A DNA stretch of 50,325 nucleotides from a virus. This document shows positions 1,264 to 25,574 of the stretch, one piece after another. The translations under genes and the position numbers were made by a program. The stretch spans positions 1 to 50,325 of IMG/VR virus record IMGVR_UViG_3300021142_001757; one strand, given 5' to 3'. Every line of letters starts with the position of its first letter. The first letter of the stretch is position 1. Under the pieces are notes generated by a model. That model was not told the origin of the DNA and made no database searches. It saw only the letters and a list, made by a program, of their open reading frames with translations.

Positions 1264-1292
1264 TTGACTATTCTAATAATATTTGTTAATAT
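1264..1292 (+). promoter_or_regulatory. Sigma70-like promoter before ABC operon
   Basis: TTGACT at 1264-1269, a 17-base spacer and TAATAT at 1287-1292 form a near-consensus host-type promoter immediately upstream of the AAGGAG site of the binding-protein gene. The predicted mRNA would have a very short leader. AT-rich DNA gives chance matches, so confidence is moderate. Confidence 0.4.
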
Positions 1293-1309
1293 ATGCTAAA
1301 GGAGAAATT

Positions 1310-2284
1310 ATGTTTAACAAAACAATAGCTATTGCATTTGCTACTATTGCACTTATCACGGCGGCGCATGCAGATACCACAGTTCGTGTAAATCGCATGT
1401 TAAAATATGCTAGCACAGAACCACTACTATACAGAGTTACTGAATTACTTCCAGAATATGCCAAGAAAGAAGGCATCAACGATGTTAAAGTAGAATTTGT
1501 AGATATTCTTGAGTCTACAAAAGCTAATGAAGCTATGCTTCTTGGTCAAATTGATATTATTTGGGGTGGAATAAATGGTTTTGGTATCTTATATGATAAG
1601 AAACCAGAAGATACTAAAATTTTAGCTGGCGGTGAAGAATTTGATAATTGGTTAGTTTGTGGCAATCCAAAGATAAAGACTCTTCACGATATTGGTCCAA
1701 CAACAAAAATTGCTATGAAAGGACTAAACAGCGGAGAACAAATGTTGCTACGTGAATTTACTGCAGCAGAATTTGGTGATGAACAGTTTGATAAATTTGC
1801 AAGTAATATTGTAGTGATGCCTCGTGACCAAGCACTTGCTCAAATAATTTCTGATAAACCAGAAATAGAGTGTGGCGTTATTGGAACTCCATGGCAAAAT
1901 ATTGCTGTTCAAAAAGGTGCTCATATCGTAGCACAATCTATTCCTAACAAAACATACGGAACACTTAATTTGGTTTATAGCACCAAACATTGGTTAGATG
2001 CTAATCCTAAATTGGCTCGTGCATGGATTGCTGCACAACATCAGGCAGTTCAAGAATTTGAACACGATCCTATTCCTATGTTAAAAACTTATATCGAGCG
2101 TGACCAAGTAACTGAACCTACCATTGAAGAACTGATTAAGCAAAAGCGCGAAAATAAAGATGTATATGAAGTTAGTCCACAAAAAGATTTAGCTTTTATT
2201 GATTTCATGTACCGTGTTGGCATCTTAACTGGCGCTGGTAAAGGTCATAAAGATATGGTTTGGGACGAAAAATTAGTTAAATGA
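1310..2284 (+). CDS. ABC importer substrate-binding protein, NitT/TauT (SsuA/NMT1-like) family
   Basis: The start at ATG 1310 is chosen because AAGGAG precedes it and because it opens a clean signal peptide (K4, hydrophobic core, cleavage after AHA near residue 21); an upstream in-frame codon would spoil this. The mature protein looks like a type-2 periplasmic binding protein of the nitrate/sulfonate/taurine/thiamine-precursor class, with KVEFVDI, a LLGQIDI-WGG segment, a mid-domain LV-STKHWLDANP typical of the class, and a C-terminal helix region. It would deliver a small solute to the permease in the host inner membrane. Its stop overlaps the ATPase start (ATGA). The substrate is unknown; sulfonate, taurine, nitrate and pyrimidine-precursor binders are all in this fold. 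A complete transporter is rare on phage genomes. Confidence 0.8.
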   Translation: MFNKTIAIAFATIALITAAHADTTVRVNRMLKYASTEPLLYRVTELLPEYAKKEGINDVKVEFVDILESTKANEAMLLGQIDIIWGGINGFGILYDKKPEDTKILAGGEEFDNWLVCGNPKIKTLHDIGPTTKIAMKGLNSGEQMLLREFTAAEFGDEQFDKFASNIVVMPRDQALAQIISDKPEIECGVIGTPWQNIAVQKGAHIVAQSIPNKTYGTLNLVYSTKHWLDANPKLARAWIAAQHQAVQEFEHDPIPMLKTYIERDQVTEPTIEELIKQKRENKDVYEVSPQKDLAFIDFMYRVGILTGAGKGHKDMVWDEKLVK

Positions 2285-2886
2285 TTGAACTTCGTAACCA
2301 TACAGTTACAGTTTGTGATACTATTCCCTTGTTTGCACCGATAGATTTGTCGGTGCAAGCAGGAGAAATTGCTGTTATCATGGGAACAAGTGGAGTAGGC
2401 AAAACAAGTTTGCTTGCTTCTATTGCAACTAGATCAGATATCATATTCAAGAATCAATTTCGTGTTTTTCAAGAAAGTCATCAACTGTTTCCATGGATGA
2501 CCGTGCGAAAGAATTTAGAATTAGTTTGCCAAAAACCATATATTGATCTGGTAAAGCGATGGAATTTAGAACAATATCTAGATCATAGTCCAACAAATTT
2601 AAGTGGCGGACAACGCCAACGATTTACGCTTATTCGCAGTTTATGCAGTGGATTACGCACATTGTTATGCGACGAGCCTCTAAGCGCCTTAGACGGTCTT
2701 ACAGGGGCAACTGTTGCAAAAGATTTCCGTGAGATTGTTCACGAAGAAAACCTAACCGTAGTATGGGTTACGCACAATGTAACCGAAGCACGAATTGTAG
2801 GCGATAGCATTTATTTGCTTAGTAAAGATGGCTTAAAAGACGTAACCCGTGAGGATAATTTAATTGTTTCGATCCTTTCTTTATAA
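2281..2886 (+). CDS. ABC importer ATP-binding subunit, NitT/TauT family
   Basis: A 201-aa ATPase with every core motif intact: Walker A GTSGVGKT (35-42), Q-loop VFQE (Gln64) followed by LFPWMTV as in nitrate/taurine/sulfonate importers, signature LSGGQ (107-111), Walker B LLCDE (128-132), D-loop SALD, and switch His165 in VTHN. It is slightly shorter than the usual 230-260 aa because the regulatory C-terminal tail is minimal. ATG overlaps the previous stop by four bases, and the end overlaps the permease start by 23 bases, so the three subunits are translationally coupled. Intact motifs argue that it is functional and under selection. It would energise import at the cytoplasmic face of the host membrane during infection. 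Confidence 0.88.
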   Translation: MIELRNHTVTVCDTIPLFAPIDLSVQAGEIAVIMGTSGVGKTSLLASIATRSDIIFKNQFRVFQESHQLFPWMTVRKNLELVCQKPYIDLVKRWNLEQYLDHSPTNLSGGQRQRFTLIRSLCSGLRTLLCDEPLSALDGLTGATVAKDFREIVHEENLTVVWVTHNVTEARIVGDSIYLLSKDGLKDVTREDNLIVSILSL

Positions 2887-3610
2887 TATTTTAGCCCTTT
2901 CACTTATATTAGTAGGATGGCATATTTTATATCTCGCTGTTCAAGAACCACTTATATTTCCAGATAGTACCAGTATTATTGCTGCTCTATACAATATGGT
3001 GCAAACAGCAAAGTTTTGGAATAGCTTTGCGTTGACAATGAAAACACTTATTATAAGTTATATTATTGGCTTATCATTGACATTGGCTATCATATTGTTA
3101 TGTTTTAGATATCAATTAGTAAAAAATTTGTTTGAGAAATATTGTTCTTATTTCAATCCGCTGCCTAGCTTTGTGCTAGTTCCATTCATGAGTTTGTTTA
3201 TGGGTTTAGGGGCTAGCCTGGTTTATAGCATTATCATATGGAATATTGTATGGACTAGTGGATTGCAAATGCTGCGAGCCATAGAATCAGTGCATGAACA
3301 ATGGCATAAGCATGTTGTTAACCTTCGTTGGAAACCGTTAAAAGCATTGTATCATGTGTATATTCCAGCTTCTATAAGCAATATTATAGGCATTGCTAGC
3401 ATAAGTTGGGCAAACAGTTGGCGAATATTGATTAGTTTAGAAGTTGTATTTGGCAGCATCGGCGGTTACTTTGGATTAGGTTCATATATTATTGATGTTA
3501 AAAGTAAATTGGATATTGACCAAATGTATGCTATTCTTTTTGTAATTGCTTTAACAGGCGTTATAATCAATAGCGCACTTAATAATTTAAGCAAGAGGTA
3601 TAAAGTATGA
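2864..3610 (+). CDS. ABC importer permease subunit (BPD_transp_1 type)
   Basis: A 248-aa hydrophobic protein with about six membrane segments. An EAA-like cytoplasmic loop (NLRWKPLKALYHVYIPAS) followed by a membrane helix marks a binding-protein-dependent transport inner-membrane component. The start codon is TTG at 2864, supported by a GAGGA site about seven bases upstream inside the ATPase gene; no ATG gives a full first helix. The stop overlaps the next gene's ATG (3607). It completes a three-gene importer with the two genes upstream. The family is the one used by TauC/SsuC/ThiX-like permeases; the transported compound cannot be read from sequence. Confidence 0.82.
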   Translation: MFRSFLYNILALSLILVGWHILYLAVQEPLIFPDSTSIIAALYNMVQTAKFWNSFALTMKTLIISYIIGLSLTLAIILLCFRYQLVKNLFEKYCSYFNPLPSFVLVPFMSLFMGLGASLVYSIIIWNIVWTSGLQMLRAIESVHEQWHKHVVNLRWKPLKALYHVYIPASISNIIGIASISWANSWRILISLEVVFGSIGGYFGLGSYIIDVKSKLDIDQMYAILFVIALTGVIINSALNNLSKRYKV

Positions 3611-5736: not shown

Positions 5737-5934
5737 TTAGAAGAATGCCATACCTGACTTCTTAGTGGTTTCTAAGTTTTCTTCAATAATCTTTGTAATA
5801 ATATTGCGTTCTTGAACACACATGTCCATGAGTTCAGAATAGGTAACACCACCACGCATATACCAGCACATTTTAAGTATATTTTGTTTTATTTTTCGCA
5901 CATCACTTTCATATTCAGCCACTAACTCAACCAA
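5737..5934 (-). CDS. Small C-terminal extension ORF of gp26-like protein (probable -1 frameshift product)
   Basis: The ORF is 65 aa if begun at TTG 5934, but no ATG or GTG exists in this frame between its upstream stop (just before the slippery site) and that TTG, and no proper ribosome-binding site precedes the TTG. The frame is open back through the heptamer A AAT TTT in the end of the gp26-like gene, exactly one base behind it. The likely product is therefore a gp26 fusion through -1 frameshifting, with FRATILTLTHEEL-- at the junction. The segment is helical, with a WYMRGG turn and a C-terminal ETTKKSGMAFF. In long-tailed phages, G/GT-type chaperones use the same trick beside the tape-measure gene, which lies next door here. 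The alternative is a stand-alone small assembly protein. Confidence 0.6.
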   Translation of the reverse strand: MVELVAEYESDVRKIKQNILKMCWYMRGGVTYSELMDMCVQERNIITKIIEENLETTKKSGMAFF

Positions 5935-5951
5935 TTCTTCATGTGTTAAAG

Positions 5952-6794
5952 TTAAGATAGTGGCTCGAAAAAATTTGCATAATCAAATGTTACATTAACA
6001 TTATATTGGTGTTCACAAGCTTCACATTGAACTCTAGATGGTGGCAATGCTGCTTGTTCAGCATATTGACGTAACTTTTCTTGAACTGTCTTAATAATTT
6101 GATTATTGGTATTTTCGTAAAATTGTGCAATAAATTCAGGATTGGTAACTACTGTTCCATCTTCTGTAGTAATACTTTCTGTTGCAGAACTTATAAGTGT
6201 GACATTGCTTTTAATAATATTCTGCAAATGAACATCAAATTGTGCTTTGCGTGTTTCTGCATCAATGTTTTCATTGTTTAACAATTGAATAATCTTTTGT
6301 TCTTCAAATGCAGAAATATTATTTTTAGTGCTTTGTACATAGTTAAGTGGTTTAAATTTAAAGATTAAATTATCTATCGATAAGGTATCACTATAATTGG
6401 GTGATTTTAAATATAGTAAAGTTTGACTTAAATTTAAACCATGACGACTTTCGGTTTCACAATTAGGACATTTACTATCCATTTCCATAGTTTCACCATA
6501 GGTAGCAATACGAATAGCGATCAAAATAGCGTCAACATCAATAGTTGGCATTGCCCAAGCGTTTGTAATAGCAGGAATACAACTTTGAATAACATTCACT
6601 ACACCTTGACCATTCATTAGCGCATCGGGTGTGCGCAGCATGATTTCATCTTTGGCGGTCATAGGCATAACACCAATTTCACCATTGGCTGGTAGGTTTA
6701 TTGAATTAGGTGCCCAGTATCTTCCACCACTTGGAAGTTTAAGATAAATCGCAGGCTGACGAAAATGCTTGGCAAGTGGATTTGGATTTTGCAT
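5952..6794 (-). CDS. 26: T4 gp26-like baseplate hub/assembly protein
   Basis: The N-terminus (NPLAKHFRQP-IYLKLPSGGRYW) and the following ALMNGQG segment match the T4_baseplate family (T4 gp26/gp51 type), which acts in baseplate hub assembly. The protein is 280 aa from the chosen start; T4 gp26 is 208. Two CxxC pairs (CPNC in the middle, CEAC near the C-terminus) suggest a zinc-binding knob. I prefer the second ATG (6794) because GGAAG lies eight bases upstream; an ATG at 6809 is in frame but has no such site. It is transcribed leftward from a late promoter at 6829-6836. A slippery heptamer near the 3' end leads into the downstream small ORF. Confidence 0.8.
   Translation of the reverse strand: MQNPNPLAKHFRQPAIYLKLPSGGRYWAPNSINLPANGEIGVMPMTAKDEIMLRTPDALMNGQGVVNVIQSCIPAITNAWAMPTIDVDAILIAIRIATYGETMEMDSKCPNCETESRHGLNLSQTLLYLKSPNYSDTLSIDNLIFKFKPLNYVQSTKNNISAFEEQKIIQLLNNENIDAETRKAQFDVHLQNIIKSNVTLISSATESITTEDGTVVTNPEFIAQFYENTNNQIIKTVQEKLRQYAEQAALPPSRVQCEACEHQYNVNVTFDYANFFEPLS
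5970..5976 (-). promoter_or_regulatory. Predicted -1 ribosomal frameshift site A AAT TTT
   Basis: On the minus strand the gp26-like frame reads GCA AAT TTT TTC GAG, containing the X XXY YYZ heptamer A AAT TTT six codons before the stop. Slipping one base back enters the open frame of the 5737-5934 ORF with no intervening stop. A stimulatory downstream structure is not obvious. Confidence 0.55.
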
Positions 6795-6806: not shown

Positions 6807-6814
6807 CATAAATA
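6807..6814 (+). promoter_or_regulatory. Late promoter box CATAAATA for tape-measure gene
   Basis: One mismatch from TATAAATA. The expected start near 6820 gives a leader of about 40 bases to ATG 6861. It faces the minus-strand box at 6829-6836. Confidence 0.55.
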
Positions 6815-6860: not shown

Positions 6861-9200
6861 ATGGCAGCAGACCCAAGTGACATTGCTCAAGCAGTAGCCG
6901 AATCTTTTGAAGAACTTAATAAAAAATTAGGTGATGCAAATTTGCGTTGGGGCGGTTTAGAAAAAGCTACTCAATCATTGCAAATTCGTATGAATGCTAC
7001 TGCAAAAGATTATAAAGATGATGGTGAAGCTTACAAACGTTTAATGAGAGAACGTAGCAAACGAGAAAACGAAATTATAGATGCTACACGAAAGGGAACT
7101 CTTACTGCACGTGAAGCAAGGGCAGAATTAGAAAAACTTAATAAAGAAGTATCTGGAGTTATACCACCACAATTTGCTCAACAATTTAACAAGCTTCAAG
7201 AAGCAAATAAATTTGCAACTGATTTTCAAATAAACAATGCAAAATCATTAAAAAATCTAGGAATTGCTGCACAATTAGGTTATTCAGGATTAATGCAATT
7301 TGGATCAGCCGCAACAACACTGATCAAAGCCTACCAAGGTGGTGAAACTGATATTAGAATGGCAGGCACTACTACAGCAACATTTGCCAAACTTCTAACT
7401 TCAGCGGGCAGCGCAGCAGGAAAAGGATTAAATGCTATCGGAGATGCTGCTTTAACTGCTGCACCACTATTAGCTGAAACTGGAATAGGAGCTTTGGCTG
7501 TTGCTAGTGCTGGTATTGCAGCTAAAGGACTTGGTATTGCACTTGATTATACATCTAAAGCTGCTGATCAATTAGCACAAACAGCTATTCCTATTTTAAC
7601 AACCGAATTAGACAAACTTTATACTAACTTTAATGCAATTAGTAGTGCAGGTCTTGTTTTTTCTGGTGGTATTCGTGAAATGGCAAATGCTGGTTTGGCA
7701 TTTAAACTAACTTTACCAGAATTTGCAGATGTAGTAAAAGCAAGCAGTGAAAATCTAGCAAGCTTAGGTATAAGCACAACAGAAGCTGCAAAGCGTATGG
7801 GTGAAATTGGCAACGTAATGCGCAAAGATAAAACCAGTTTAGAATTACAAAAACTTGGTTTTACCTTTAAAGAACAAGCTGCACTAGTTGCAGATACAAT
7901 GAGTTTAATGCGTCAAAGCGGCGGCAGATTAACTGCAAGCGATCAAGATGTTGCTGAACAAACAAAAAAATATGCAGAAAATTTACGTATTATTAGTTCT
8001 ATTACTGGTGAAGATGCAAAGAAAAAAGAACAACAAGTTCGTGATCAATCAAATGAATTAGCATTTCAGCAAAAACTAGCTGGTATGGATGAAAAACAAA
8101 GACAAAATACTATTGCTGCAATGGAAAATATGAGTGATGCGCAGCGCAAAGCATTTATGGAAACTGTTGTATTTGGTCAAGCCATAACACCAGCAAGTGC
8201 ATATGCTGTTGCTAATATTGCAGGATTTGGAGATAGCGTGGCTCGTGCTGCACAAGAATTTCAAAATGGAACTCTTGATGCAGAGTCAATGCGCAAAAAC
8301 AATGCAGATTATGGAAATATTATAAAGCAATCATTGATTGATGCAACTGACCTTGCTCGTGCTGGTATGGTAGAAGGAATAAGCGGGTTTGTTAAAGATT
8401 TAAAAGGTCTGTATCAAAATGAATTGCAATTTAGAAATGTCTTTACAAAAGAAGCAGTGGATGCAGCAGAGGAAGCAGTAAAAAAACAAATAACAGCTAC
8501 AAACGAAATAGATGTTAACATGATTAAAGCAGCTAATGCTGGTCGCGATATGGCGCTAACAATTCAAAAAGAAATGTTAGACAGTCATGTTTTAGAACAC
8601 ACTGCTGATGGTTTTGCTAAAGTAACTGATTCTATATTAGATTTATTAGCAAAATTTACTGGAGTTGATGTAAGAGGACCACGGCTATCAGAAGGAGAAA
8701 ACCTTGGTGAACAACGTAGACTTCGTTCAAGATTAGCCGCTATGCAAGAAAGAAATCTTGAACAAGCTGCAAATATTAATACTGAAACAGCAAAGGCATT
8801 TGCAGGCACATCGGCTATATTACCTCCTTCACCTGCAGATTTAGCTACTAATAAAACAAATCGCATCGATCTTCCTAATATTGGAAATTTGCCAACAGAT
8901 ATACTATTGGTTCCAAAACAATTTGCTAATGGTGGTTTATCAAGCGGACCACAAAGTGGTTATCTTGCAACATTACATGGGACAGAGGCAGTTTTGCCTG
9001 AAAATTTAACAAGTATGTTAATGGAATTAGCTAACAAACCTTCTCAAGTTGAAGATTTTACAAAAGCAGTTAATAATGCATCACTTCAAAATAAATCCGA
9101 AGATTTGCTTGCAATGCTTAATAAGAAATTTGATACTATGATTGATATCATGGATGATGTTGCTGGTCATACACAAAAGACTGCTATACGTGTTGCATAA
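6861..9200 (+). CDS. Putative tail tape-measure protein
   Basis: A 779-aa protein with the layout of a tape measure: a charged helical N-terminus (residues 1-130, coiled-coil-like with many K/E/R), an Ala/Gly-rich hydrophobic stretch (about 185-228) that could insert in the membrane at DNA ejection, long helical regions, and a C-terminal GGLSSGP..YLATLHGTEAVLPENL segment (about 693-718) that recurs near the C-terminus of many tape-measure proteins. In T4 this job is done by gp29 (590 aa). The gene is divergent from the gp26-like unit, as chaperone and tape-measure genes are usually neighbours, and lies directly before the portal gene. It would set tail length inside the tube and may be ejected at infection. 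Assignment is by pattern, not alignment. Confidence 0.72.
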   Translation: MAADPSDIAQAVAESFEELNKKLGDANLRWGGLEKATQSLQIRMNATAKDYKDDGEAYKRLMRERSKRENEIIDATRKGTLTAREARAELEKLNKEVSGVIPPQFAQQFNKLQEANKFATDFQINNAKSLKNLGIAAQLGYSGLMQFGSAATTLIKAYQGGETDIRMAGTTTATFAKLLTSAGSAAGKGLNAIGDAALTAAPLLAETGIGALAVASAGIAAKGLGIALDYTSKAADQLAQTAIPILTTELDKLYTNFNAISSAGLVFSGGIREMANAGLAFKLTLPEFADVVKASSENLASLGISTTEAAKRMGEIGNVMRKDKTSLELQKLGFTFKEQAALVADTMSLMRQSGGRLTASDQDVAEQTKKYAENLRIISSITGEDAKKKEQQVRDQSNELAFQQKLAGMDEKQRQNTIAAMENMSDAQRKAFMETVVFGQAITPASAYAVANIAGFGDSVARAAQEFQNGTLDAESMRKNNADYGNIIKQSLIDATDLARAGMVEGISGFVKDLKGLYQNELQFRNVFTKEAVDAAEEAVKKQITATNEIDVNMIKAANAGRDMALTIQKEMLDSHVLEHTADGFAKVTDSILDLLAKFTGVDVRGPRLSEGENLGEQRRLRSRLAAMQERNLEQAANINTETAKAFAGTSAILPPSPADLATNKTNRIDLPNIGNLPTDILLVPKQFANGGLSSGPQSGYLATLHGTEAVLPENLTSMLMELANKPSQVEDFTKAVNNASLQNKSEDLLAMLNKKFDTMIDIMDDVAGHTQKTAIRVA

Positions 9201-9253: not shown

Positions 9254-11044
9254 ATGGCTACGTGGAAAAAACATTGGCGCATTGTAAGTGATGGAGCATA
9301 CTCACCAGTAAATGGTAGTGTAACCGATTATAGCAGTTATAATTATCTTGGTTCACAAGCAAATGCTGCATATCGTAACTATCAATCTATGTTACCAGAT
9401 GTTTACAGCGGACATCCTAATCGTATTGACCGATATACTCAATATGAAAATATGGATTTGGATAGTGAAGCTAATAGCGCACTTGATATTATTGCTGAAT
9501 TTTGTACACAAGTTAGTGATGATACTAAGACTCCTTTTAATATTCATTTTCATGAAGACCCAACTGATAACGAAACCATGATTCTTAAAGAACAACTTAA
9601 GGCATGGACAAAGTTAAATGATTTTGACCAACGCATCTTTAAGATGTTTCGTAATGTGTTAAAATATGGTGACCAAGTATTCGTTCGTGACCCAGAAACT
9701 TATAAATGGTACTGGACTGAAATGAACCGTGTTTCCAAAGTCATTGTTAATGAATCACAGGGAAAAGTTCCAGAAATTTATTATATCCGTGATTTAAATC
9801 CTAACCTACAAAATGGAACTATTACTCGTCCACCAGGTCCAAATGACAGTTATGCATTTGCTCCTTATATGGGTGGTTCTCGTGCTTATACCGCTGGCGG
9901 TGAATTATTCTCACCAAATACACGTTTTGGTGCAGGTAATAATGAGTTTCCAGTAGGTGCAGAACACGTTGTTCACTTAAGTTTAACCGAGGGACTTGAT
10001 GTTAGCTGGCCTTTTGGCGTTTCACTATTTGAAGCAATGTTTAAAGTATTCAAGCAAAAAGAATTGCTTGAAGATGCTATCTTAATTTACCGTATCTCAC
10101 GTGCGCCAGAACGCCGTATGTTTAAGATTGATGTTGGTAATATGCCAGCGCATCTTGCAATGCAGTTTGTTGAGCGTGTTAAAAACGAAATTAATCAGCG
10201 CCGTATTCCAACACAAAGTGGCGGCGGTTCAAACTTAATGGATGCAAGTTATAATCCAATGAGTATGAACGAAGATTTCTTCTTTCCACAGAGCGCAGAA
10301 GGACGTGGTTCATCAGTAGAAGTGTTACCAGGTGGTCAAAATCTTGGAGAAATTGATGATTTGCGTTACTTCCAAAATAAAATGTTCCGTAGTTTGCGTA
10401 TTCCAAGTAGTTATTTGCCACAAGGTCCAGAGGAAAGTGACCGTTCATTTACAGATGGTAAGGTAACAACTGCTCTTATTCAAGAATATCGTTTCAATGA
10501 ATATTGCAAACGACTACAAAAGTATGTTTCTCCTAAGTTTGATGATGAGTTCAAGCTATTTCTCAAATGGCGTGGATTTAATTTAGATAATAGTCTTTTT
10601 GAAGTACGTTTTACTGAACCACAAAATTTTGCATCTTATCGTGAAATTGAACTTAATGCTGGTCGTATTACTGCATTTACACAAATGCAACAAACTGAAT
10701 ATCTGTCAAAACGTTTTATGCTCAAGAAATATCTTGGTCTTACTGAAATAGAAATGGCTGAAAACGACAAGATGTGGCATGAAGAACGTGGCACAGAAGA
10801 ACCAAAGAGTAATATACAAGGCAGTGATTTGAGAGCAGTTGGTGTCACGCCAGGTGCCATTGGAACCGATCTAGAAACAGTAAGTGATATCGAAGCTGCT
10901 AACCAATCTGGAGTACCTGGTGGTCCTCCACCAACTGCGGTACCAGGTGAAATTGGTGCTGCTGGTGTTCCAAGTCCAACGGGCGGCGCAGGCGGCGGTG
11001 CTGCAGGCGGATCAACTGCAGGTTCGCAGTTTGCTGGTGGATAA
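9254..11044 (+). CDS. 20: Portal vertex protein (T4 gp20 family)
   Basis: A 596-aa protein recognised as T4-type gp20: near the N-terminus RIDRYTQYENMD-D-EANSALDIIAEFCTQ, then FNIHFHEDPT, a central MNRVSKVI/IYYIRDLNPN region, EHVVHLSLTEGLDVSWPFGVS, APERRMFKIDVGNMP, and SYLPQGPEESDRSFTDGK. These are hallmarks of T4-like portals. Twelve copies form the DNA gate at one head vertex and nucleate prohead assembly. The Pro/Gly/Ala-rich C-terminal tail (about the last 60 residues) is low-complexity and unlike the compact core. T4 gp20 is 524 aa. The gene begins the head operon that continues to gp23. Confidence 0.95.
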   Translation: MATWKKHWRIVSDGAYSPVNGSVTDYSSYNYLGSQANAAYRNYQSMLPDVYSGHPNRIDRYTQYENMDLDSEANSALDIIAEFCTQVSDDTKTPFNIHFHEDPTDNETMILKEQLKAWTKLNDFDQRIFKMFRNVLKYGDQVFVRDPETYKWYWTEMNRVSKVIVNESQGKVPEIYYIRDLNPNLQNGTITRPPGPNDSYAFAPYMGGSRAYTAGGELFSPNTRFGAGNNEFPVGAEHVVHLSLTEGLDVSWPFGVSLFEAMFKVFKQKELLEDAILIYRISRAPERRMFKIDVGNMPAHLAMQFVERVKNEINQRRIPTQSGGGSNLMDASYNPMSMNEDFFFPQSAEGRGSSVEVLPGGQNLGEIDDLRYFQNKMFRSLRIPSSYLPQGPEESDRSFTDGKVTTALIQEYRFNEYCKRLQKYVSPKFDDEFKLFLKWRGFNLDNSLFEVRFTEPQNFASYREIELNAGRITAFTQMQQTEYLSKRFMLKKYLGLTEIEMAENDKMWHEERGTEEPKSNIQGSDLRAVGVTPGAIGTDLETVSDIEAANQSGVPGGPPPTAVPGEIGAAGVPSPTGGAGGGAAGGSTAGSQFAGG

Positions 11045-24513: not shown

Positions 24514-24932
24514 TGGCTAAGTTACTTAAAAATGCAAGTTTGCAAACAGGTAGCACTGCAATTCAATTGCCTCTTGGAGCAACAGCAGATCGCCCTCTAA
24601 ATCCAGTCAATGGACAAATTCGTTACAATACTGATTTGCAACGTTTTGAAATTTATTATAATGCTTGGCAAAGCATTGCTATTCTTGGCAATGTTACCAT
24701 TTATAAAGATTCATTTACTGGTGATGGTGTTCAAACACAATTTACATTGAGTTATACTCCGCCAGATCAAAACAGTATTCTTGTGTTTGTTGGCAACGTT
24801 CAACAAAATCCAGGTGATGCATTTACGTTAAGTGGTGCGGTTATTACCTTTGCTAACCCTCCTCCTGCAACTTATAGTGTTGTTGTTTTCCATAAATTTT
24901 CATCTACGGATGCAAATCTACCAGGTACTTGA
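24513..24932 (+). CDS. Short fibre protein with TGDG-type domain
   Basis: A 139-aa protein with two recognisable fibre modules: GATADRPLNPVNGQIRYNTD followed by FEIYYNAWQSI (residues about 23-55), and SFTGDGVQTQFTLSYTPPDQ then SILVFVGNVQQNPG (about 70-105), a beta domain common in phage fibres and repeated at the ends of the proteins at 27684-29966 and 34623-38435. It ends abruptly after FHKFSSTDANLPGT; its last 15 bases overlap the 3' end of the antisense endonuclease gene. A longer ancestral protein may have been truncated when the endonuclease arrived. Confidence 0.6.
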   Translation: MAKLLKNASLQTGSTAIQLPLGATADRPLNPVNGQIRYNTDLQRFEIYYNAWQSIAILGNVTIYKDSFTGDGVQTQFTLSYTPPDQNSILVFVGNVQQNPGDAFTLSGAVITFANPPPATYSVVVFHKFSSTDANLPGT

Positions 24933-25574
24933 TAACCTACCCTTAACGCAATTTATTGGACAATCTTTTGTAAAATAAGATTTTTTTCCGTCATTCCACC
25001 AATGTTTACCTTTTTGTGCAATTGATCTTTTTAATTTGTGTTCATTGGATTGTTTAATTCCTCGTTTTGCTAATGCAGCATTTTTAATATGTTCGGATGT
25101 ATGTTTTTTTCCTGTATGCGCCTTTGATCTTTTTTCATTAGATTCTTTTGATTGTTTACATCCTCTGCGAGAATCTGCTGCTTTTTTAATATGTTCGGGA
25201 GATTGTTTTTTACCTTTTAATAAACTTGGCTTTCCAATCATTGATTTTCTTCTTTTTTCAATAGTTGTTTCAGATTGAATAGCCCCACTTGTTCCATCAC
25301 CGCCATCCGTTTTATTTCTTAATATACCAGTTTTCATATCTTTTCTGCCATACCAAAGAATCATTCGTCTTTCAATTGCTAATACACCTATTTCTGTTAA
25401 ATTGTGTTCTAAAATAATAATGTTATTTTTATTTTTTGGTAAAGATATCAAATGGTTTTTAGACCATGCTCTATTTTTGTAACCTTTTCCAATATAGTAG
25501 GGAGTCAAATCCGATGCTCTTATATAAGCATATACATAATATCCGCTTGGCGGATTAGTGCTGGTAAATACCAT
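24918..25574 (-). CDS. GIY-YIG homing endonuclease (Seg-like) with NUMOD3 repeats
   Basis: A 218-aa protein. The N-terminal catalytic module has YYVYAYI (12-18), PYYIGKG (25-31) and Arg35 in KNRAW, as in GIY-YIG nucleases, with a downstream Glu region (AIERRMI). From about residue 100 there are four tandem NUMOD3-like DNA-binding units of the form GK..S-EHI-KAA-SRRG-KQS. The family includes T4 SegA-G, free-standing nucleases that spread by cutting phages lacking them. It lies antisense within the fibre locus and has its own late promoter and leader hairpin. An N-terminal Pro/Ser stretch precedes the motif. Confidence 0.88.
   Translation of the reverse strand: MVFTSTNPPSGYYVYAYIRASDLTPYYIGKGYKNRAWSKNHLISLPKNKNNIIILEHNLTEIGVLAIERRMILWYGRKDMKTGILRNKTDGGDGTSGAIQSETTIEKRRKSMIGKPSLLKGKKQSPEHIKKAADSRRGCKQSKESNEKRSKAHTGKKHTSEHIKNAALAKRGIKQSNEHKLKRSIAQKGKHWWNDGKKSYFTKDCPINCVKGRLSSTW

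Follow-up and report, generated by a model that had tools for sequence, protein, structure and literature searches.

The question raised by this locus is whether a gp26-like gene of a virus related to T4 is decoded as one protein or, through a programmed −1 ribosomal frameshift, as a short and a long form. The gene lies in a 50-kb virus fragment, the whole of which (50,325 nucleotides) is referred to below as the window; the direct DNA similarity of the window to known phages was almost nil. The gene product belongs to the gp26/gp51 family T4_baseplate (PF12322; 75.1 bits against the curated cut-off of 24.5, model positions 9–219 of 219), and an in-frame ATG is also present at position 6809. 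The 3′ end of the gene reads GCA AAT TTT TTC GAG CCA CTA TCT TAA. As an earlier note on this DNA had stated, the downstream ORF lies exactly in the −1 frame: it is open from behind a TGA (5985–5983), through the heptamer, to its stop at 5739–5737 (KFFRATILTLTHEEL...GMAFF). The absence of an ATG or GTG start from this frame was likewise borne out, the earliest start-like codon being an internal TTG at 5934. Taken alone, the −1 ORF had no convincing family match in Pfam, PHROG, or NCBIfam; its structural model was all-helical (pLDDT 90.6).

According to the mechanism proposed here, two proteins would be made from one start. Most ribosomes would end at the TAA (5954–5952) and release the short gp26-like protein, whereas a fraction would slip back one base at AAATTTTTTC (T_TTT_TTC, 5973–5967, overlapping A_AAT_TTT), helped by a stem just downstream, pass the stop, add approximately 75 residues (FFRATIL...GMAFF), and end at 5737. 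The short and long forms would be the counterparts of T4 gp26 and gp51 and are most likely tail assembly chaperones of the G/GT type. It is very probable that the window gene makes short and long chaperone forms by such a −1 slip; the slip itself is inferred, as is the ratio of the two forms. The features of the locus are given in Table 1.

Table 1. Predicted features of the gp26-like locus and its surroundings in the window.
Feature	Position	Strand	Evidence
gp26-like protein, short form (TAC-N-like), 280 aa	5952–6794	−	PF12322 E 8e-21; PHROG 150 E 3e-24; AlphaFold2 mean pLDDT 86.8
0-frame stop TAA of the short form	5952–5954	−	Sequence
Putative slippery heptamer T_TTT_TTC	5967–5973	−	162/166 distinct loci, 114/118 clusters; 6 in 144,159 control codons
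Heptamer A_AAT_TTT of the earlier note, overlapping T_TTT_TTC	5970–5976	−	~73/166 distinct loci; sequence
Stop TGA that closes the −1 frame shortly before the putative slip site	5983–5985	−	Sequence
Predicted −1 extension (T-like/gp51 C-terminus-like), 79 codons from AAA plus stop	5737–5976	−	Open frame; 150 distinct sequences; dN/dS; model
5′ arm of the predicted downstream RNA stem	5950–5965	−	MFE −19.8 kcal/mol, z −5.0; covariation
3′ arm of the predicted downstream RNA stem	5917–5932	−	MFE; covariation; synonymous-codon resampling
Divergent 779-aa virion-protein candidate adjoining gp26, possible tape measure	6861–9200	+	No family match; CBB homolog CBB_251 in virions
Portal protein (context)	9254–11044	+	PF07230 E 8e-108

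An initial scan yielded 36 relatives (81 to 30% identical), and the layout of the window was common to all 35 complete ones; it was also found in 15 cultured jumbo phages, including 121Q, RaK2, Phosso, PA5oct, Atu_ph07, GAP32, CBB, Munch, XaC1, and Vibrio 2.275.O. Two further profile scans added at least 160 loci. Among the matches listed, the second frame was at −1 in 209 of the 210 loci having both parts, the lone exception (L176) having a gp26 that is itself broken upstream, and an in-frame X_XXY_YYZ heptamer occurred within the overlap in all 166 distinct loci. Thus, the heptamer and frame relation that the earlier note had proposed to look for in homologous loci was recovered, and the layout characteristic of frameshift-made chaperones of the G/GT type, an overlapping second frame open through a conserved heptamer, is present. 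The choice of A_AAT_TTT as the slip site fared less well: this heptamer is in frame at 5976–5970, and a slip at it or at T_TTT_TTC would give an identical product (...YANFFRATIL); however, the conserved heptamer is T_TTT_TTC, one codon further on (162 loci versus about 73). A_AAT_TTT alone was found in three loci (L021, L027, and L028, with five T), and T_TTT_TTT alone in one. The break in the frame sits on a T6 run, as would be expected of a homopolymer sequencing or assembly error in a single gene; nevertheless, the same break recurs across 166 distinct loci and also in the genomes of isolates that come from many laboratories, by which this explanation is refuted for practical purposes and its probability made negligible. 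It should be noted that the extension is not annotated as such in the records of RaK2, PA5oct, and Atu_ph07, and that the entries for 121Q, CBB, GAP32, and others list it as a hypothetical protein of its own, frequently in shortened form.

The loci were grouped into 118 clusters below 70% gp26 identity, in 114 of which NNT TTT TTC was kept. The residue encoded by the codon before TTT TTC varied (Asn, Ser, His, Thr, Asp, Arg, Phe, Ala, or Tyr), whereas its third base was always T. In the controls, in-frame T_TTT_TTC occurred 6 times in 144,159 codons, and 6 of the 152 other Phe-Phe pairs were written NNT TTT TTC. The resulting enrichment (P ~1e-153) is overstated because the clusters are not fully independent lineages, although the contrast is still extreme. 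Consequently, heptamer conservation is beyond chance and does not come from protein constraint alone. In 137 close pairs, dN/dS was 0.05 in the −1 frame versus 1.2 in the 0-frame continuation; strong purifying selection acts on the former. An upstream Shine–Dalgarno-like stimulator was sought in the 118 clusters and was absent (1/118).

The same frame could belong to a separate gene having its own start, reached by termination-coupled restart at the gp26 stop or from a TTG or ATG just inside, with no frameshift. An ATG within 10 codons of the putative slip site in 18 of the 118 clusters and the TTG at 5934 of the window are consistent with this, as are the ORFs of Pseudomonas phage Cygsa01 and cyanophage Sf-FS3, each of which carries an ATG at the stop and is recorded as a protein in its own right, a "baseplate hub assembly catalyst". 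Yet ATG, GTG, and TTG are all absent within 10 codons in 60 of the 118 clusters, the conserved residues FFR..LL start at the heptamer, ahead of any start, the heptamer is invariant at the nucleotide level, and T4 gp51 presents the fusion in covalent form, so that a separate gene is distinctly improbable. Cygsa01 carries C_ATT_TTC in place of the canonical heptamer, with its ATG overlapping the stop, whereas Sf-FS3 has both the heptamer and the ATG. Independent initiation may contribute in these two phages and in the 18 clusters with a nearby ATG. Relatives with a separate, ATG-started gene or with a single fused frame lacking a slippery sequence had been named in the earlier note as evidence against frameshifting; the heptamer is present in 166 of 166 loci, but Cygsa01 and the 18 clusters depart from the expected picture.

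In the relatives, the sequence downstream of the heptamer folded better than its dinucleotide shuffles, mainly at +8 to +30. The pairing in most loci joins approximately +13..+24 with +80..+69, six bases past the heptamer (for example, GGCTCTTGA/TCAAGAGCC and GGCTTTTGTCTC/GAGACAAAAGCC). In this register (i + j = 93), at least 8 of 9 pairs were formed in 49 loci, and 13 more were shifted by three with a one-codon insertion, whereas competing registers mostly had 0–4 loci and one had 9. Among 68 ungapped sequences, 9 of 13 pairs changed on both sides, most clearly UA31/CG23 and GC37/AU21, with 79 double-changed cells versus 34.8 ± 4.2 in shuffled data. When the −1 frame was resampled with synonymous codons, the protein being kept, the median z over 118 loci was −2.72, versus −0.15 in the next stretch, and that of the window was −2.64. 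A covarying stem under selection, a feature missed in the earlier note, thus lies downstream in most loci. RNAalifold run with defaults on the mixed alignment gave no consensus structure, and Rfam gave no meaningful match. The window clade uses another register (5965–5950 with 5932–5917), the covariation of which is modest (equalled in 1 of 500 shuffles). This stem starts one base past the heptamer, closer than usual, its first pairs being near the ribosome, and once these are removed its z is only −1.0, most of the significance being lost. The stem also bears on transcriptional slippage, in which a U added to some mRNAs on the T6 run would lead into the −1 frame. Most loci have six T, and a few (L029 and L035) have eight or nine; six T is, however, short for slippage by a bacterial polymerase, the three loci keeping only A_AAT_TTT have five, and selection on the downstream stem does not fit this explanation, which is very improbable.

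The programmed frameshift, the preferred reading, was compared with the two-gene arrangement of T4. T4 gp26 (E 9e-64) and gp51 (E 4e-52) are paralogs within PF12322; PHROG 150 reaches position 280 of 282 in gp51 and only 235 in gp26. Search of single gp51 proteins with the HMM profile of the −1 ORFs gave weak matches (best E 0.018), and profile–profile comparison was therefore needed. By hhalign, the extra C-terminus of gp51 matched the −1 ORFs of Sf-FS3, phiAS5, Cygsa01, and IC12 (98%, E 2e-13) and those of the window group (71–84%), whereas T4 gp26 had no match to −1 ORFs (0.3%). Two PF12322 genes per genome were found in six Straboviridae with separate gp26 and gp51, and one in each of 17 genomes of the frameshift type, the score of SCTP-2 in the whole-genome search being below the Pfam cut-off; Cygsa01 was the sole one of the 17 without the canonical heptamer. 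Because the gp51 C-terminus matches the −1 product and two PF12322 genes stand against one, a single gene would yield by frameshift what T4 makes as two proteins. The short form is homologous to gp26, and the short form plus the −1 extension to gp51; in T4, by contrast, these are two separate genes on opposite strands. The gene in the window is not itself a gp51 gene, since its gp26-like part and extension are split over two frames rather than joined in one continuous frame. The terminal Phe-Phe of T4 gp26 is coded TTC TTT, which is not slippery, and a slippery run is likewise missing from that place in other gp26 genes belonging to two-gene arrangements. Aeromonas phage phiAS5 (Chrysonvirus), assigned to Straboviridae, is of the frameshift type: T_TTT_TTC and a −1 extension accompany its one PF12322 gene, and separate gp26 and gp51 are lacking. 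The chances are evenly balanced that the U_UUU_UUC-plus-stem cassette is ancestral for the whole T4 superfamily, the T4 branch having later duplicated the gene and fused it in frame (gp26 + gp51), and the stem having been kept with its register shifting between lineages. The two arrangements offer a natural comparison between frameshifting and gene duplication as ways to set how much of each of two protein forms is made.

In the G/GT scheme, the tape measure is bound by the short part and the tail tube protein is brought in by the extension; the predicted proteins would likewise chaperone the tape measure. The earlier note had taken the adjacent gene for the tape-measure gene; this drew no support from the comparisons: the 779-aa neighbour is divergent, had no family match in the libraries and no match to T4 gp29, and its sequence does not mark it as a tape measure. 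Hence, the location usual, although not strictly required, for G/GT genes, just upstream of a tape-measure gene in the same direction, is not seen here. The neighbour and its homologs in further loci (L039–L044) form a conserved virion protein family (14–18% identity among phages) and are a candidate tape measure. In the published virion list of CBB, the neighbour (CBB_251) is abundant, with 29 peptides, while CBB_250 (the gp26 homolog) and CBB_249 are not listed, such absence in mass spectrometry being weak proof (PMC5259590). The structural comparison with chaperones suggested earlier did not bring out a relationship: a Foldseek search of the PDB found no solved chaperone-like fold for the short form or the extension, and the weak matches of the extension to viral models, including a "tape measure chaperone" (E 3.4) and a gp51 (E 5.9), were not taken as evidence.

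Frameshifting could also be real with both forms serving as baseplate hub components or hub-assembly factors, having no tape-measure role. Classical T4 work puts gp26 and gp51 in hub assembly, where they are listed as hub assembly chaperones (PMC3004832), the family names say baseplate hub, and the gene points away from that of the putative tape measure. Against this, a pair of short and long products arising at a slip site is the hallmark of tail chaperones, the gp26 homolog is absent from the CBB virion list, and later literature, together with the Stupor annotation, calls gp26 and gp51 tail or tape-measure chaperones; a purely hub-related role is accordingly unlikely. Elsewhere in the window, an apparently complete ABC transporter set, unusual for a phage, was observed at 1283–3610 (+), comprising an NMT1/THI5-like binding protein, an ATPase, and an inner-membrane permease; the flanking 193- and 197-aa ORFs, both unassigned, resemble each other by eye. 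Repetitive fibre-like ORFs rich in Asn, Gly, and Thr follow one another over most of the contig (15584–50161), and within the fibre gene cluster an ORF with a GIY-YIG-like start (YVYAYIRASDLTPYYIGKGYKNRAW; 24918–25574, −) probably encodes, judging by eye, a homing endonuclease.

A programmed −1 frameshift of the G/GT kind, the logic of which the earlier note had rightly invoked, is strongly supported by the comparative evidence, since the heptamer, the −1 relation, the lack, in most loci, of a usable start, the purifying selection, the covarying stem, and the homology with gp51 all argue for it. Ribosomal frameshifting is thus most likely the source of the tail chaperone pair in a very large T4-related group of environmental and jumbo phages. 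This would account for the small ORF behind gp26 that is unannotated or mis-annotated in RaK2, 121Q, PA5oct, and others, as well as for the cyanophage "gp51" annotated as a scrap of approximately 60 aa; in Sf-FS3, a 63-aa ORF directly behind gp26 bears the gp51 product name.

The general frameshift-chaperone trick is already known from other phages. Vladimirov, Gautam and Davidson 2022 is cited in one paper (PRFect, PMC10274946) for the use by T4-like phages of two chaperone genes, one short and one long and fused, in place of frameshifting, and in another (the Adele paper, PMC12846349) for T4-like phages whose TAC-N genes carry poly-T slip signals. It therefore appears that T4-like gp26 and gp51 as tail assembly chaperones, with poly-T slip sites in some, have already been reported, and the mechanism is taken as one of a known kind because these signals are credited to that study. 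An incomplete literature search found no earlier report of the downstream stem or of such a survey. For phage Adele (Vandenendeviridae/Andersonviridae), a −1 frameshift was proposed on the grounds that TAC-N has an invariant GTTTTT at its end and that the −1 frame is always open (PMC12846349); the present locus is similar in its predicted −1 frameshift at the end of TAC-N and differs in the phage families concerned and in the stem, which is not mentioned in the available part of that paper. In lambda, G and GT are a short and a long form produced by slipping close to where the first gene ends, an arrangement conserved in long-tailed phages except T4 (PMC5009743). The window locus differs from G/GT in that no similarity to solved chaperones was found, no same-direction tape-measure gene follows, the slippery sequence is T_TTT_TTC, and most members have a long-range 3′ stem; it resembles G/GT in having products unlisted among virion proteins where looked at, one start, a predicted slip near the end of the first gene, and a −1 extension.
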